NCBI RefSeq assembly: GCF_029633915.1
Contig: NZ_CP091092.1
Span: 2,108,001-2,172,000, forward strand
From: Methanomicrobium antiquum
GTDB lineage: Archaea; Halobacteriota; Methanomicrobia; Methanomicrobiales; Methanomicrobiaceae
Length of the DNA: 64,000 nt
Reading direction: 5' to 3'
Shown here: piece after piece, positions 2,100-31,193 of the stretch
Numbering within the stretch: position 1 is the stretch's first letter
Layout: the number at the start of each line of letters is the position of its first letter
Made by a program: the position numbers and the translations under genes
Notes under the pieces: generated by a model
The model's input: the letters and a program-made list of their open reading frames with translations, nothing else
The model's database searches: none
Told to the model about the DNA's origin: nothing

Positions 2100-3524
2100 A
2101 TGGAAGATTCATACGGAATTTTTACAACAGACGGCGAAACAATCTCAGGTTCACTTCATGACGACTATGCGGTAAATCTTGCAGAAAGGCTTGATGAGAG
2201 TACGGCATCTTTGTATATAAACACAAAAAACGGAGTTTTGCTTCTTGGAACGGCTGTTAATGTACAAAAGACAGGGAGGCGGCCTGACACATTCATATAC
2301 CTTGAAAAGACTGACATTGAAAAAGAGCTTCCGCCAAGAATAGATCTCTTATACATCCATGAATTTTACAAAAGGGTGAAAAACAGACTCTCAAAGATTG
2401 AGTATGAGATAAGAAATCTTGCATCAGATGACAGTTTCTTTGATGAGAGAAATAAAAGGATAACAAGCAGTCTTTCAGGCTCTAATGTTGCAGATTATGC
2501 TATTGGAAGACTTTTATTGTCAAAGGAGACTGTCTGTGTATCAGATGATCTGTCAAAATCAGTCGATTTTGTAGTAGCAGTTACAGAAAAACTTTCTTCA
2601 TACATATCAGCCGGATTTACAATCGTTGTTTCAAAAAGAACATTCAGAGGCGCTGATCTTTTGGTTACTGAGAAATTTTCAGGTGATGTGCAGATTTATC
2701 TTGACACCGAGAAAATAAACGACAAAAAACGGGCAGTCATCTATAAAAATATCGGAGTCTTTGCTCAGAATCCAAAGATAAGACAAAAAATTTCAGGTGC
2801 ATATACAAAAAACAGTCTGACAGAAGAACTTGTCACTCAGATAAAATTAAAAGAAGGCACAAACAGTAAAAAATCAGGAGAACTTGAGGAATTTTTAAGA
2901 GAGGAGAATATTGAATTTTCAAGAGAAAACACTGATTCCTTCTCACCTGAAAACTATGAAAGTCGTCCTGTATCAAAAAAATCCGCTGTTAACGAGGCCG
3001 GATATTCTGACTGGAAGATTAACGATTACGACAGGGAAAACCTTATGCTTGAATATGAAAAGCATATGGAGAAAAAGCATAAGGGAAGAGTCAAAATTAT
3101 TGCTCTTTTAGCAGTTATTCTTTTGTTAGCGGCAGGAGTGGTGTTTTTCTCAGGTTATACGGGATTTTTCGGCTCTAATGACAAAGAGACAGATATCCCG
3201 CACATCACCCCTTCTGCAACAATTGTGCCTGAACCTTCTCAGGGAGCAGTTGTAGAAAGGCTTAATTCAACTCCGGGAAACATGCCTGAAGAATTTTTAG
3301 GGTTTGGAAGTGCCTATATGATAACTGTTTCAGAACCATCAGATGCTTCATTTGATGTAACTTCACAGTTTCTTCCTGACAAAGAATATTTCCTGATGAT
3401 ATACAATCAGTCCGGATATTCATGGGAACCTGCTGATACATCTCCTCTTGTGTCAAACGAATCTGCGATAGCCTATATTGAAAAATCGGGCATATACAGG
3501 CTTTTTATAAAAAGAGAAAACTGA
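2100..3524 (+). CDS. Unknown single-pass membrane protein, partner of the GTPase
   Basis: 474 residues, no family recognised. The first ~325 residues look like a soluble cytoplasmic region ending in a charged linker. One membrane helix follows at about 331-352, then a Pro/Thr linker and a ~100-residue outside domain. There is no signal peptide. The start is ATG at 2100, preceded by GCAGGGGGAATAAAAAT, which holds a G-rich ribosome-binding site. The gene sits 39 bases behind the GTPase-like gene and in the same direction, so it is likely part of the same operon. With its inside and outside parts it could carry a signal between the GTPase in the cell and the exported PEGA-domain protein; that is only inferred from context. 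Confidence 0.65.
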   Translation: MEDSYGIFTTDGETISGSLHDDYAVNLAERLDESTASLYINTKNGVLLLGTAVNVQKTGRRPDTFIYLEKTDIEKELPPRIDLLYIHEFYKRVKNRLSKIEYEIRNLASDDSFFDERNKRITSSLSGSNVADYAIGRLLLSKETVCVSDDLSKSVDFVVAVTEKLSSYISAGFTIVVSKRTFRGADLLVTEKFSGDVQIYLDTEKINDKKRAVIYKNIGVFAQNPKIRQKISGAYTKNSLTEELVTQIKLKEGTNSKKSGELEEFLREENIEFSRENTDSFSPENYESRPVSKKSAVNEAGYSDWKINDYDRENLMLEYEKHMEKKHKGRVKIIALLAVILLLAAGVVFFSGYTGFFGSNDKETDIPHITPSATIVPEPSQGAVVERLNSTPGNMPEEFLGFGSAYMITVSEPSDASFDVTSQFLPDKEYFLMIYNQSGYSWEPADTSPLVSNESAIAYIEKSGIYRLFIKREN

Positions 3525-3544
3525 TTAAAGATAAAAAAAATTAT

Positions 3545-3606
3545 ATGAAAGTTACTTCGTAACTTACATGAAACAGTTAGCAGGAAAAAAATACCATGAA
3601 CGTTTT
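3545..3606 (-). repeat. Intergenic dyad element, copy 1
   Basis: Copy of a dispersed intergenic element, reversed relative to copies 2 and 3. The core is the 17-bp dyad AAGTTACTTCGTAACTT at 3549-3565 (7-bp arms, 3-base centre). It is flanked by CATGAAACAGTTA and, 25-30 bases on, by CATGAACGTTTT. It lies between two genes of the same operon-like run. Confidence 0.75.
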
Positions 3607-3710
3607 CAGTGAATAAAAATTCAGAAAAGAGAAAAAACAGAGCCTGAATAATTATCTTTCGGAATTTTTAAGGCAACATCTCAATTTTTGCTGAATCAGG
3701 GACTAAACAG

Positions 3711-5645
3711 ATGTCAAAGAACAATATCAGAAGGGCACAATATATTATTTTACTCATTTTTTTTGTATCAGTAGCTCTTTTTCCGCTGTGTGCATCTGCT
3801 GATGTTGTTAAAGGAACGATTTCTGTAAGGTCAGCACCCCAGGGTGCAGATATTTATTTAAATGACGAAAATATCGGGGAAAAAACAAATTATGTTATTT
3901 TAGATGTTTTCCCGGGGATTCATTTCATAAGGCTTGAGATGCCCGGATATAAGACATGGGAAGAGATTATTGAGGTAAAAGAGGGGGAAATTACCTTTGT
4001 CAGCCATGATATGGAAATTTCTGCCGGCGATGCATTTACCATTCAGACAAAGCCTGAAGGTGCACGGATTTACGTTGACGGAGAGTTTGAGGGATTTTCA
4101 AATACAGTCTTAAATCAGCTTCCGACAGGCCAGCACACTTTTTTGCTTACTCTTGATAACTACTCTGATTACCAAAAAACAGTCATGATAAATGAGGGTA
4201 TGTCACAGTCGCTTATGCATACCTTTGAGCCTCTTCCTGTAACAGGAGAGGTCATCTTTGAATCAAACCCTTCTAACGCCGCCATTTATTTGAATGGAGA
4301 ATATATAGGCGATACCAGGTACACTCTTAAGGATGTTTCTCCCGGCACTTATGATGTTGTCATAAAAAGGGCAGGATATGATGACTGGAAAGGAATTTTG
4401 GATGTTGCCGCCGGAAAAATATCAGAGGTGAAAGCTTCTCTTTCGCTTTCAAAAGCAGAGGTTGTTGTAAAAACAGAACCTCCGGATGCAGATGTCTTCC
4501 TTGACGGAGAATTAATAGGAAAAAGCCCCGTTTCAACACTAACTGATCAGGGAAACCATACAATAAGAATTGAAAAATTCGGATACAGGCCTGTTGAAGA
4601 GATTATAGAGGTTGGCCCTTTAGGAACGATTGTTTCATACACTCTTTATTCTATGGCAAAAGAGGCAGTAGATGAGGCAGAAAGTGCGATAAATGCCAAT
4701 CTGCAGTACAACCCTGAAAAAGGAAAGGAACTTTTAATTTCAGCAAAGGAGGCACTTGAAAGAGACGACACTCTAACTACTATCACTTTGTCAGAGCTTT
4801 CAATAAAAGCAAGCTTTGATGTTGATTCAGACGGGGTCTTGAATTCTCAGGATATTGCTCCAAATCTCGACAATACTCTGATTTATATCTCGCCATTCGC
4901 ATTTTTGATTGTTTTGGTGTTTTTGTTTGCAGCTGATTATTCTGTACAACAGATTCGCCCGGAACTTTTAATTGACATTCCAAAAAAAATTTTTGAGGAT
5001 GATATGCTTGCAAGAGGCCATGTTACTGCCCGGTTAGAGAGAGGGCCTTACAGGGCGTTTGTATGTACAATTTATATTGACGACTCATCAGTTGACCATT
5101 TCACAAATCCCGGAAGATATGACATAATGCTTGCCGGAAGAGGTGTTGGAGAGCATATTTTATCAGCACATCTTCAGATTGCAAAGAAAAGATACGGAAG
5201 TTTAGAGATAAAGGCTGAAGAGAAGTTTATTGTCGAATCTTTGAATCAAAAAAAGGATGATGATTTTTATTCTGATACAAAAATCCGGGATTTTGATGAG
5301 TCATCAAAAAAAGATTTAACAGGAGATAATAAAGATAAAGAATCAGAAATCATTGAAAATGAAGATATAACGTCTGATATGGCTGATAATAATAAATCAT
5401 CAGAGAATATTGAAGATAAGACATCTGAAAATAATGATAAAGTACTGGAAAATAAAGAAAATACGGATAAAGAATCTCCTGATACTGAAAATAGTCATAA
5501 AGAACCTCTCAACAATGAAGATAAAGAGACTGGTGATAAACCTGTTGAATTCTTAGACCCTGATGATTATCTATCTGAAAAAGTTTCAGAAATTATTGAG
5601 ACAGAAGATTATAGTAATGAACTTGAGAATTACTATGAAAAATGA
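3711..5645 (+). CDS. Exported PEGA-repeat membrane protein
   Basis: 644 residues. A signal peptide (about 1-31, ending CASA) is followed by four PEGA-type beta domains at roughly 32-95, 105-165, 178-240 and 250-305. Each has the pattern of a P-x-A/G turn, then xIYLNG or VFLDG, then a PGxHxIxL or similar strand. Next come a helical stretch, a calcium-loop-like DVDSDGVLNSQD motif, one membrane helix near 390-412, an Ig-like domain to about 505, and a very acidic, Asn/Lys/Glu-rich low-complexity tail. PEGA domains are surface and cell-wall-associated modules in archaea and bacteria. Together with the GTPase-like and single-pass proteins upstream, it suggests an envelope complex. A dyad repeat element lies on each side of the gene. 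Confidence 0.85.
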   Translation: MSKNNIRRAQYIILLIFFVSVALFPLCASADVVKGTISVRSAPQGADIYLNDENIGEKTNYVILDVFPGIHFIRLEMPGYKTWEEIIEVKEGEITFVSHDMEISAGDAFTIQTKPEGARIYVDGEFEGFSNTVLNQLPTGQHTFLLTLDNYSDYQKTVMINEGMSQSLMHTFEPLPVTGEVIFESNPSNAAIYLNGEYIGDTRYTLKDVSPGTYDVVIKRAGYDDWKGILDVAAGKISEVKASLSLSKAEVVVKTEPPDADVFLDGELIGKSPVSTLTDQGNHTIRIEKFGYRPVEEIIEVGPLGTIVSYTLYSMAKEAVDEAESAINANLQYNPEKGKELLISAKEALERDDTLTTITLSELSIKASFDVDSDGVLNSQDIAPNLDNTLIYISPFAFLIVLVFLFAADYSVQQIRPELLIDIPKKIFEDDMLARGHVTARLERGPYRAFVCTIYIDDSSVDHFTNPGRYDIMLAGRGVGEHILSAHLQIAKKRYGSLEIKAEEKFIVESLNQKKDDDFYSDTKIRDFDESSKKDLTGDNKDKESEIIENEDITSDMADNNKSSENIEDKTSENNDKVLENKENTDKESPDTENSHKEPLNNEDKETGDKPVEFLDPDDYLSEKVSEIIETEDYSNELENYYEK

Positions 5646-29454: not shown

Positions 29455-29535
29455 ATAAACACTCTTTATTTAAATTCTAAAGCTATACGCCGGGCACTGA
29501 GATCTTCCTGAGTTGTTCGAAACACACTTTTTTTT

Positions 29536-29605
29536 AAAAACGTTCATGAAACTAAGGTTTCATGCTAACTGTTTCATATAAATAACAAAGTGATTTTCAT
29601 GGTAA
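29536..29605 (+). repeat. Intergenic dyad element, copy 6
   Basis: Follows the family order: AAAAACGTTCATGAAA, then TTTCATGCTAACTG, TTTCATATAA, the 17-bp dyad AAATAACAAAGTGATTT (29580-29596, one mismatch), then TTCATGG. It differs from copies 1-3 in the dyad, but the arms still almost pair. Confidence 0.7.
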
Positions 29606-29916
29606 ATTCTTGCTCATAAAACAAATGTCTCATACCAACATATCAGGTGATTCACAACGTAATTTTCACAGTAAACTGAAGTATTGTAAAAGCAGATACC
29701 TGCTTTTTGTTTTTCCGGGAGGTGATTATTGACTTTTGTATACTGCAAAAAAATTCAGGATTATTGAATTTCAGCGCCCGTTTTTGTTCCGGCGGACTTA
29801 ATATATATAGAAATTAATGATAATAAAACTTAACAAACATATGCAGTTTAGAAAGAAATTCCGGCAAATAATAAAGATAAAAAATATCAAAACTGCAATC
29901 AAATGTCAAAAATAAG

Positions 29917-30078
29917 TCTCATGAAACAGATGATTTACAATGTAAAATCAAATCATGATTTTCATTAAACATTGTATGAAAAATTTGTTTCATGAACGTT
30001 TATTAAAAAAGTTTCATATAAAAATTAAAAAAGTTTCATATAAAATTTCATGTAAATCACAGCGTGATTTTAATTAAA
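29917..30078 (+). repeat. Composite intergenic dyad element, copy 7
   Basis: Begins CTCATGAAACAGATGATTTA, continues with AAATCATGATTTTCATT and TTTCATGAACG, and contains AAGTTTCATATAAAA twice. It ends in the perfect dyad AAATCACAGCGTGATTT (30054-30070). Both arms of this dyad differ from AAGTTAC/GTAACTT, yet still pair. It directly precedes the RNase HIII-like gene. Outside these elements the 638-base gap shows no gene. Confidence 0.65.
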
Positions 30079-30092
30079 AAGGATGTGCTTTC

Positions 30093-31193
30093 ATAACCAG
30101 TTATCCAAAAATTAATCCTGACGACACTCTTCCTGAATTATATGAGAATATAAAAAGCATTCTTAAAAATAAGGGGTTTTTAACAGCCGGTTTTAAAAAA
30201 ATACCATATGGAATCCAGTTCAAAGTTATCTTCGATAAAAATGAAGAAATTTTAAGAATATACAAAAATAAAATTGGAAACACCACTTTTGATCTATCAC
30301 AGGTTAAAAAACCGGAGTCTGCTTCACGCTTAAAAGAAATTTTAAATCCACCACCAGTGATGAAAGTCACATATCCAAAATCGGCAACCACTGCCAAAAT
30401 AAAATCAGAATCAGCTTTCAAATACAATAAAAATTATTCAGATGAAATGAATGGTAAAAAAACCGCTAAAATGACTGTTGAAAAAACTAATGAAAAAAAA
30501 GATACCAGCCGGACAGGAAATACAGGCATTCCCCCTGAGAATCTTCCCTTCCCTCTTATTGGTACAGATGAATCAGGAAAGGGGGATTATTTCGGGCCGC
30601 TTGTTGCCGCCGGAATGTATGTCGATGAGAATACAGCAGTTTTTTTAAAAAAAATTGGTGTTAAAGACAGCAAACTTTTAACTGATAAAGAAATATTGGT
30701 GATTGCAAAAAAAATCAAAGAAAAGTGCCATAATTATTATTCAGTAATTGAGATATCACCTGAAAGGTACAACCGGCTTTATGAACAGTTCAGGAGCGAA
30801 AACAAAAACTTAAACACACTTCTTGCATGGGCACATGCAAAGGCAATTGAAGAGGTTTTATCTAAAAAGGAATGTAGGACTGTAATTTCGGATAAATTCG
30901 GAAACGAGAGATATATCCTTTCAAAACTTCAGGAAAGAGGAAGAAAAGTAAATCTTATTCAGGTGACAAAGGCAGAGAGAAACATAGCAGTTGCCGCGGC
31001 ATCCATCCTTGCAAGGGACAGATTTTTGGAAAAATTAGAAAAACTCTCGAAAAATGCAGGATTTACTCTTCCAAAGGGAGCATCAGATTCAGTAATCTTC
31101 GCAGGAAAAAGAATTCTTAAAGAGAAAGGAGAAAAAGGTCTTTTAGAATTTGCAAAAGTTCATTTCAAAACAACCAAAGAATTAACAAAATAA
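30093..31193 (+). CDS. RNase HIII-like ribonuclease with atypical start
   Basis: About 366 residues if started at ATA 30093. The C-terminal catalytic domain begins GTDESGKGDYFGPLVAAG (Asp159, Glu160 in that numbering) and continues GVKDSKLLTDKEI and AAASILARDRFLEKL, the RNase HIII type of type 2 RNase H, which cuts RNA in RNA-DNA hybrids. The upstream part (IPYGIQFKVIFDKNEEILRI) matches the TBP-like N-domain of RNase HIII. The frame is open back to 30078 but has no ATG, GTG or TTG before GTG 30357, which would cut off that domain. AAAGGATGTG at 30078-30087 is a suitable ribosome-binding site for ATA 30093; a one-base error after ATG 30083 is the alternative. Confidence 0.8.
   Translation: MTSYPKINPDDTLPELYENIKSILKNKGFLTAGFKKIPYGIQFKVIFDKNEEILRIYKNKIGNTTFDLSQVKKPESASRLKEILNPPPVMKVTYPKSATTAKIKSESAFKYNKNYSDEMNGKKTAKMTVEKTNEKKDTSRTGNTGIPPENLPFPLIGTDESGKGDYFGPLVAAGMYVDENTAVFLKKIGVKDSKLLTDKEILVIAKKIKEKCHNYYSVIEISPERYNRLYEQFRSENKNLNTLLAWAHAKAIEEVLSKKECRTVISDKFGNERYILSKLQERGRKVNLIQVTKAERNIAVAAASILARDRFLEKLEKLSKNAGFTLPKGASDSVIFAGKRILKEKGEKGLLEFAKVHFKTTKELTK

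Follow-up and report, generated by a model that had tools for sequence, protein, structure and literature searches.

A probable AUA start codon for RNase HIII in Methanomicrobium antiquum and apparent near-cognate starts in other Methanomicrobiales genes

Where does translation of an RNase HIII-like gene begin when its frame holds no ATG, GTG or TTG ahead of the N-terminal domain? The question is raised by a locus of Methanomicrobium antiquum (genome G000, a single 2,438,126-base contig) in a 64,000-nucleotide stretch of DNA, positions 2,108,001 to 2,172,000 of NZ_CP091092.1, which we call the window and whose own numbering is used below. Gene finders generally accept only ATG, GTG and TTG, so genes with near-cognate starts would be shortened or missed. 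Under a canonical-only annotation, the substrate-binding domain of RNase HIII would be left out, as would the nucleotide-binding loop of a ParA-type ATPase described below. A first-pass annotation of the locus had offered an ATA start at 30093, a one-base frameshift or loss of the domain as options. Our sequence comparisons favored the first over the other two, and we consider it very likely that full-length RNase HIII is translated from an AUA start at 30093 guided by a Shine-Dalgarno (SD) site.

RESULTS

The RNase HIII frame encodes a conserved N-terminal domain ahead of any canonical start

The features of the gene are as follows, all on the + strand.

30075..30077, in-frame stop codon TAA, which closes the frame upstream (read from the sequence)
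30080..30087, SD-like core AGGATGTG, 5 bases before ATA; duplex with the 16S tail, -7.1 kcal/mol
30083..30085, out-of-frame ATG within the SD-like site, lacking a counterpart in G004
30093..30095, ATA, proposed start codon; G001 and G004 both carry ATA here, in each case after an SD-like site
30093..31193, RNase HIII coding sequence from ATA to the stop codon TAA, 366 codons plus stop; TIGR00716, 207.6 bits
30129..30344, N-terminal (TBP-like) domain, residues 13-84; helix, four strands and helix in the predicted structure
30357..30359, GTG, first canonical in-frame codon, past the N-domain; SD, -4.6
30558..31175, RNase H type 2 catalytic domain, residues 156-361; Pfam RNase_HII PF01351, 119.5 bits

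From the TAA at 30075-30077, the frame reads AAA GGA TGT GCT TTC ATA(30093) ACC AGT TAT and remains open to the TAA at 31191-31193. None of the 93 in-frame codons between the upstream TAA and GTG 30357 is ATG, GTG or TTG, which confirms the earlier observation that the first in-frame canonical codon lies past the N-domain. The ATG at 30083 does lie in a neighboring frame, as had been noted, and that frame closes after 10 codons.

The product, previously called RNase HIII-like, passed the curated TIGR00716 cut-off for RNase HIII (207.6 versus 161.2 bits). That the N-domain is encoded in frame from about 30093, as first proposed, was upheld by coding score, conservation and a confident predicted fold. 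The stretch of 88 codons between ATA and GTG is conserved, matches relatives and scores as coding at 0.46 bits per dicodon (224 long frames: median, 0.63; 5th percentile, 0.33), and the N-domain profile score of the window protein was 108.8, with the window protein itself among the sequences of the profile. In the predicted structure, block pLDDT values were 91-95 over residues 11-80, with a chain mean of 84.5 and values below 50 over residues 89-139. A Pfam scan at E 0.001 gave RNase_HII as the sole match in the window protein, and the N-domain was delimited from the predicted fold; its name, TBP-like, follows the first-pass annotation.

In a fold search, the closest solved chains were those of Geobacillus stearothermophilus RNase HIII: 3asm, aligned over 358 columns, and 2d0a, aligned over 335. 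The whole-chain rmsd was about 12-13 Å. The proteins share a two-domain architecture by fold search and the same family by profile, whereas the window protein has a long low-confidence linker (residues 89-139), which probably accounts for the large overall rmsd. The GTDESGKGDYFG motif is invariant in six orthologs. The Asp-Glu of GTDESGKGD, the Asp of DKF/DQF and the Glu of AE.NIAVAAAS are likewise invariant in six sequences, and these are presumably the catalytic acidic residues of RNase HIII. A second RNase H type 2 match in the same genome (G000:C1:941566-942051) fell below the RNase HIII cut-off and is probably RNase HII.

ATA preceded by a Shine-Dalgarno site is shared by the same-genus carriers

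Among 28 genomes of the family, RNase HIII was above the cut-off in six (G000, G001, G004, G006, G011 and G016). Three of the six genomes of the genus carry it (G000, G001 and G004); two of the same-genus noncarriers are <90% complete and the third is 91% complete. Comparison of starts in close relatives, a check suggested at the outset, revealed ATA at the homologous place in all three same-genus carriers, as AAAAAGGATGTGCTTTC-ATA in G000, AGAGGAGGAGAAGCA-ATA in G004 and GGCGGGTGTGCCAGT-ATA in G001, and the codons that follow differ (ACC, ACA and GAT). Protein identity to the window RNase HIII is 59% for G004 and 58% for G001. In another genus, G006 has GGAGTTGGTGTCTA-ATT as well as an ATG 14 codons upstream. 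The SD energy of this ATG was -0.3 versus -9.4 for the ATT, so that ATT is the probable start as judged from the sequence. G011 and G016 (genus g7) have ATG starts, with SD energies of -5.1 and -5.5, respectively.

The purine-rich site that had been noticed before ATA 30093 reads AAAAAGGATGTG, with AGGATGTG as its core. The SD duplex energies of RNase HIII and ParA genes were computed with the 16S rRNA tail of this genome, GGAUCACCUCCU, as it stands in locus L147. For the ATA codons of G000, G004 and G001, they were -7.1, -10.8 and -12.2, respectively. A slightly different 16S probe, with one 3' base that is absent from the genome, gave -8.0 for the window site and -6.8 for a rival TTG in G004. 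For comparison, the energies of 1926 in-frame ATA codons lying within long frames of this genome were -7.1 or stronger in 9.8%, -9.7 or stronger in 2.1% and -12.0 or stronger in 0.16%. By itself, the SD site of the window is thus only moderate, and the SD case is made by the three same-genus ATAs together, not by the window alone.

G000 and G001 have no ATG, GTG or TTG before the domain or in its first helix. In G004, a TTG with an SD energy of -9.5 lies four codons into the domain; the ATA of this genome is accordingly not the sole candidate, and the start is ambiguous between the two codons. Outside the family, RNase HIII loci scoring >25 bits for the N-domain numbered 32 (one genome is probably counted twice, as L052 and L069), and 31 of them have a canonical codon before the domain start or within 5 codons after it. 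The same rule applied in the family would pass G004 and G006 and fail G000 and G001. The sole exception among the 32 is L094, from a Peptococcaceae metagenome-assembled genome (around 2986-3972), which shows no canonical start and an ATC after AAGGAG; in this single assembly, either an ATC start or an indel may be the cause.

A ParA-type ATPase shows near-cognate codons across most of the order

Orthologs of a ParA-type ATPase (G000:C1:1270312-1271157, L368) were found at E 1e-40 in 20 of 27 genomes, and all 20, which belong to the same order, were examined (L367-L386). No match at E 1e-40 was found in 60 genomes of one other family of the phylum. At the homologous start position, 11 have ATT, five have ATA, one (G001) has ACG and three have ATG. 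Fourteen of the 17 near-cognate genes have no canonical in-frame codon upstream or within 30 codons downstream. The remaining three have a GTG three codons upstream (G030 and G035) or a TTG one codon downstream (G015). The SD energies of the 17 near-cognate starts ranged from -8.5 to -12.8. In G007 and G013, a stop codon TGA immediately precedes the ATT, and Pfam AAA_31 starts at residue 4 of the ATA-initiated protein. On the tree, the three genomes with ATG group together in a single supported clade, and no fewer than five changes are required to account for the codon labels. Because of these repeated changes and the confinement of ATG to one clade, the near-cognate class seems to persist while the codon drifts. 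This pattern is the strongest sign that AUG itself is avoided.

Other genes with apparent near-cognate starts

A scan of 464 kb of G000 (the window and 20 further stretches) covered 364 coding-like frames. A nitrite/sulfite reductase-like gene (L150:13413-14111, - strand) begins with AAGGAGGGATTAAA-ATT, after AAGGAGG, and its Pfam ferredoxin-like domain starts before the first ATG. Among 14 orthologs, ATG stands at the homologous codon in 10 and one codon off in L188; the other three (L187, L189 and L190) were cut, interrupted or unmatched by the search patterns. A threonine-synthase-like gene (L166:13337-14617, + strand) has GAGGTGATGAT-ACG. This gene matched in 18 genomes, and 15 loci were examined. 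G004 also has ACG, with a GTG three codons upstream whose SD energy is -1.5, so that two of the three same-genus carriers have ACG; the 13 other loci have ATG (12 loci) or GTG (one locus) at the place of the ACG or one codon from it. In addition, a frame with a lipoprotein-like signal peptide (L161:3108-4904, - strand) appears to begin with GGGGGGTTTGG-ATA after GGGGGG, and no canonical codon occurs in it until codon 82. An Orc1/Cdc6-type gene (L154:17184-18284, - strand) was considered as a CTG start and dropped, as it looks one base short (ATGGGG versus ATG TGG GAT in orthologs); an assembly error or decay is possible there.

Apparent cases were also seen in other sampled genomes. In G016, exonuclease III (L264:11911-12747, - strand) has CTG, or ATA as the next codon, and the congener G011 has TTG at the place of the CTG; a metallo-beta-lactamase-fold protein of G016 resembling RNase Z (L274:2411-3370, - strand) has an ATT or ATA start. 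A P-type ATPase of G001 (L288:14098-16557, + strand) has a probable ACG start after AAAGGAGG, and its first ATG lies inside the heavy-metal domain. In G034, an ATC start is probable for a YhbY-type protein (L337:8002-8253, + strand) and a CTG start for a signal-peptide protein (L326:10106-12082, - strand), and AAAGGAGG also precedes probable near-cognate starts at these loci. The same scan of 350 kb of Escherichia coli K-12 (271 frames) returned no near-cognate case and brought up prfB, a known frameshift gene; infC and pcnB lie outside the 350 kb scanned.

Selection against AUG or drift of a tolerated codon

Two readings of these patterns accept that the AUA is used. In the first, a set of Methanomicrobiales genes has been selected to avoid AUG, among them ParA in most of the order and, within a single genus, RNase HIII; the codon would drift among AUA, AUU and ACG while staying near-cognate and paired with an SD site. 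We judge the case for this selection to be evenly balanced. In the second, the AUA has no function, near-cognate codons being tolerated wherever a good SD site is present and the codon being free to drift. The switches confined to single lineages, namely, the ATT of the nitrite/sulfite reductase-like gene in G000 and the ACG of the threonine-synthase-like gene in two of three same-genus carriers, are what such drift would produce. However, the ATA of RNase HIII, one transition from ATG, has persisted in three genomes whose proteins are about 59% identical, and the ParA codon varies among ATT, ATA and ACG, yet becomes ATG in one clade only (3/20), as if AUG were avoided. Functionless drift is a real possibility, on the doubtful side.

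Alternative starts for RNase HIII

The real start could be a neighboring noncanonical codon, such as ACC 30096 or TTC 30090, since SD spacing tolerates one codon either way and a rule that places the start by a spacing of 9-11 favored ACC in the window. However, ATA alone is common to the three genomes and alone is one base from AUG, and we regard a neighboring start as very unlikely.

About equally improbable is a sequencing or assembly indel, by which the true start would be ATG 30083 and one base would be wrong. This ATG sits 10 bases before the ATA, a GTG lies at an equal distance in G001, and in the same genome the start of the Orc1/Cdc6-type gene does seem to lack one base. On the other hand, ATA stands at the same place in G001 and G004, and because these proteins are only 58% and 59% identical to the window protein, a shared sequencing accident is hard to credit. 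G001 likewise lacks a canonical start before the domain, and in G004 the 33 bases that separate the ATA from the preceding stop hold no ATG, GTG or TTG in any frame.

A programmed +1 frameshift would use ATG 30083 as the start and skip one base before the domain. The ATG of G000 and the GTG of G001 lie exactly 10 bases upstream, with SD energies of -6.3 and -5.6 and frames open past the ATA, and both codons fall within the SD-like sequences GGATGTG and GGGTGTG. Against this, no frame opened by an ATG, GTG or TTG in the 150 bases upstream stays open as far as the ATA in G004, no shared shift sequence was evident by eye, and the purine run adjoins the ATG in the window with no spacer. In prfB-like frameshifting, an upstream start and a shift site would be present in all orthologs, and G004 lacks the start; we find this explanation scarcely credible. 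No more credible is a start at GTG 30357 giving a protein that lacks the N-domain, for although GTG 30357 is the first canonical in-frame codon, its SD energy is only -4.6, and the 88 codons before it are conserved and coding, with the N-domain retained in both sequence and predicted fold.

Genome-wide tests do not support a general effect

Near-cognate codons at a fixed distance from the SD site were significantly enriched in only one of seven samples (P = 0.41 for G000, 0.017 for G001, 1.0 for G004, 0.56 for G006, 0.10 for G016, 0.31 for G034 and 1.0 for E. coli). The value of 0.017 for G001 came from five hits, three of them from the ParA frame and two of these internal. The test used a narrow spacing window (the 9-11 rule) and the 16S probe with one extra 3' base, and it was noisy for the GC-rich G034; the spacing rule picked the codon after the ATA both in the window and in G004. 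A version without the spacing rule gave no clear excess of near-cognate over other codons (3/88 versus 23/422 in G000, 9/89 versus 37/412 in G001, 3/57 versus 19/407 in G006 and 7/126 versus 23/640 in G016). These tests do not support a genome-wide effect, and our claim is limited to the named cases. An ortholog map listed 61 genes with no canonical start close to the position that the orthologs indicate. Many of these look antisense or wrong-frame; the map was used only for checking the named cases.

Altered initiation machinery was considered as an explanation and rejected, as the initiator tRNA and aIF1 of the genus showed no oddity in sequence comparison and alignment. The initiator tRNA pattern was found in 26 of 28 family genomes, and aIF1 was also found in 26 of 28.

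DISCUSSION

Proposed mechanism of initiation at AUA

Under initiation at AUA 30093, the 16S rRNA tail would pair with AGGATGTG at 30080-30087 and thereby place the AUA in the ribosomal P site. The ordinary initiator tRNA, with anticodon CAU, would read AUA as a near-cognate codon with one mismatch and at low efficiency, and the protein should begin with Met. We infer that this AUA works in the cell from the missing canonical start, the SD site, the same-genus ATA codons and the other near-cognate genes. Archaeal start selection relies on aIF1/aIF2 instead of IF3.

The weak codon may be kept to hold RNase HIII at a low level, by analogy perhaps roughly a tenth of that from AUG. Such low output is likely because, in the available part of PMC13009471, S. 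aureus AUU and AUA starts with an extended SD site gave about 10% of AUG in poor medium. For one site, the same portion of that report gives up to 30% of AUG when the medium is rich. Noncanonical starts are discriminated against by Sulfolobus aIF1 in vitro, according to the accessible text of PMC8211752, which makes it possible that aIF1 provides a regulatory input here.

Comparison with known near-cognate starts

As far as the available portions of PMC13009471 and PMC1780047 describe them, the weak near-cognate starts of infC (AUU in E. coli, AUA in S. aureus) and pcnB (AUU in E. coli) limit expression; the available portion of the latter also has a near-cognate start inferred for lepA of two species. 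They resemble the present case as natural near-cognate starts on conserved proteins. However, they are bacterial and IF3-modulated, with infC under the control of its own product, whereas the genes described here are archaeal, and none of them encodes an initiation factor. The starts of ccpN (AUA; S. aureus and B. subtilis) and S. aureus cvfC1 (AUU) are similar in joining AUU or AUA to a strong SD site (PMC13009471, in the part available). In contrast, those starts were demonstrated by ribosome profiling and reporters, whereas the starts described here are proposed from sequence, in different genes and another domain of life. An archaeal parallel is the Asgard tubulin atubA (PMC13394414), in which the fold calls for a rare ATT start, lying upstream of that annotated and after a plausible ribosome-binding site; it differs in being one gene, with the ATT inferred during cloning and with no conservation of this codon among species in the sections available.

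Set beside the infC, pcnB and ccpN type, G000 and G001 lack a canonical start that would include the N-terminus, and G004 is ambiguous owing to its TTG. The SD site is strong in G004 (-10.8) and G001 (-12.2) and moderate in the window (-7.1). The codon is conserved as ATA in 3/3 same-genus carriers, and the six family carriers further include one probable ATT and two ATG starts.

Switches from AUG appear to be rare elsewhere. Among 61,358 ancestral AUG starts in 36 prokaryote genome triplets, two switched to CUG and one to AUU in the part of PMC5622118 available, a count that is probably limited by annotation and still shows that such switches are rarely seen. Among the open-access articles listed by our searches, none dealt, as judged by title or abstract, with AUA, AUU or ACG starts in Methanomicrobiales or with an AUA start of RNase HIII, and no report of a near-cognate ParA start was found in the same listings. 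Near-cognate starts are thus known in bacteria, together with one inferred archaeal ATT; as far as the accessible literature indicates, those in RNase HIII, in ParA and in this order appear to be new. If real, the starts described here would mean that archaea, like bacteria in the case of infC and ccpN, employ conserved weak starts on particular genes, and natural mRNAs could then serve to test how faithfully archaea select their starts. Avoidance of AUG, if true, would amount to translational attenuation of the infC/ccpN type in archaea, unseen by gene finders.

Region upstream of the RNase HIII gene

One further feature lies before the gene.

30002..30045, + strand, two perfect 22-base tandem copies with a TATA-like TTTCATATAAAA; putative promoter role

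From its sequence, this tandem pair is probably the promoter region. The gap of about 620 bases before the gene holds, within 29529-30081 of the window, many TTTCAT/ATGAAA repeats, as well as inverted repeats of 35 bases with 86% identity at 29529-29563 and 29976-30010. The repeats of this gap are perhaps operator sites, to judge by their sequence.
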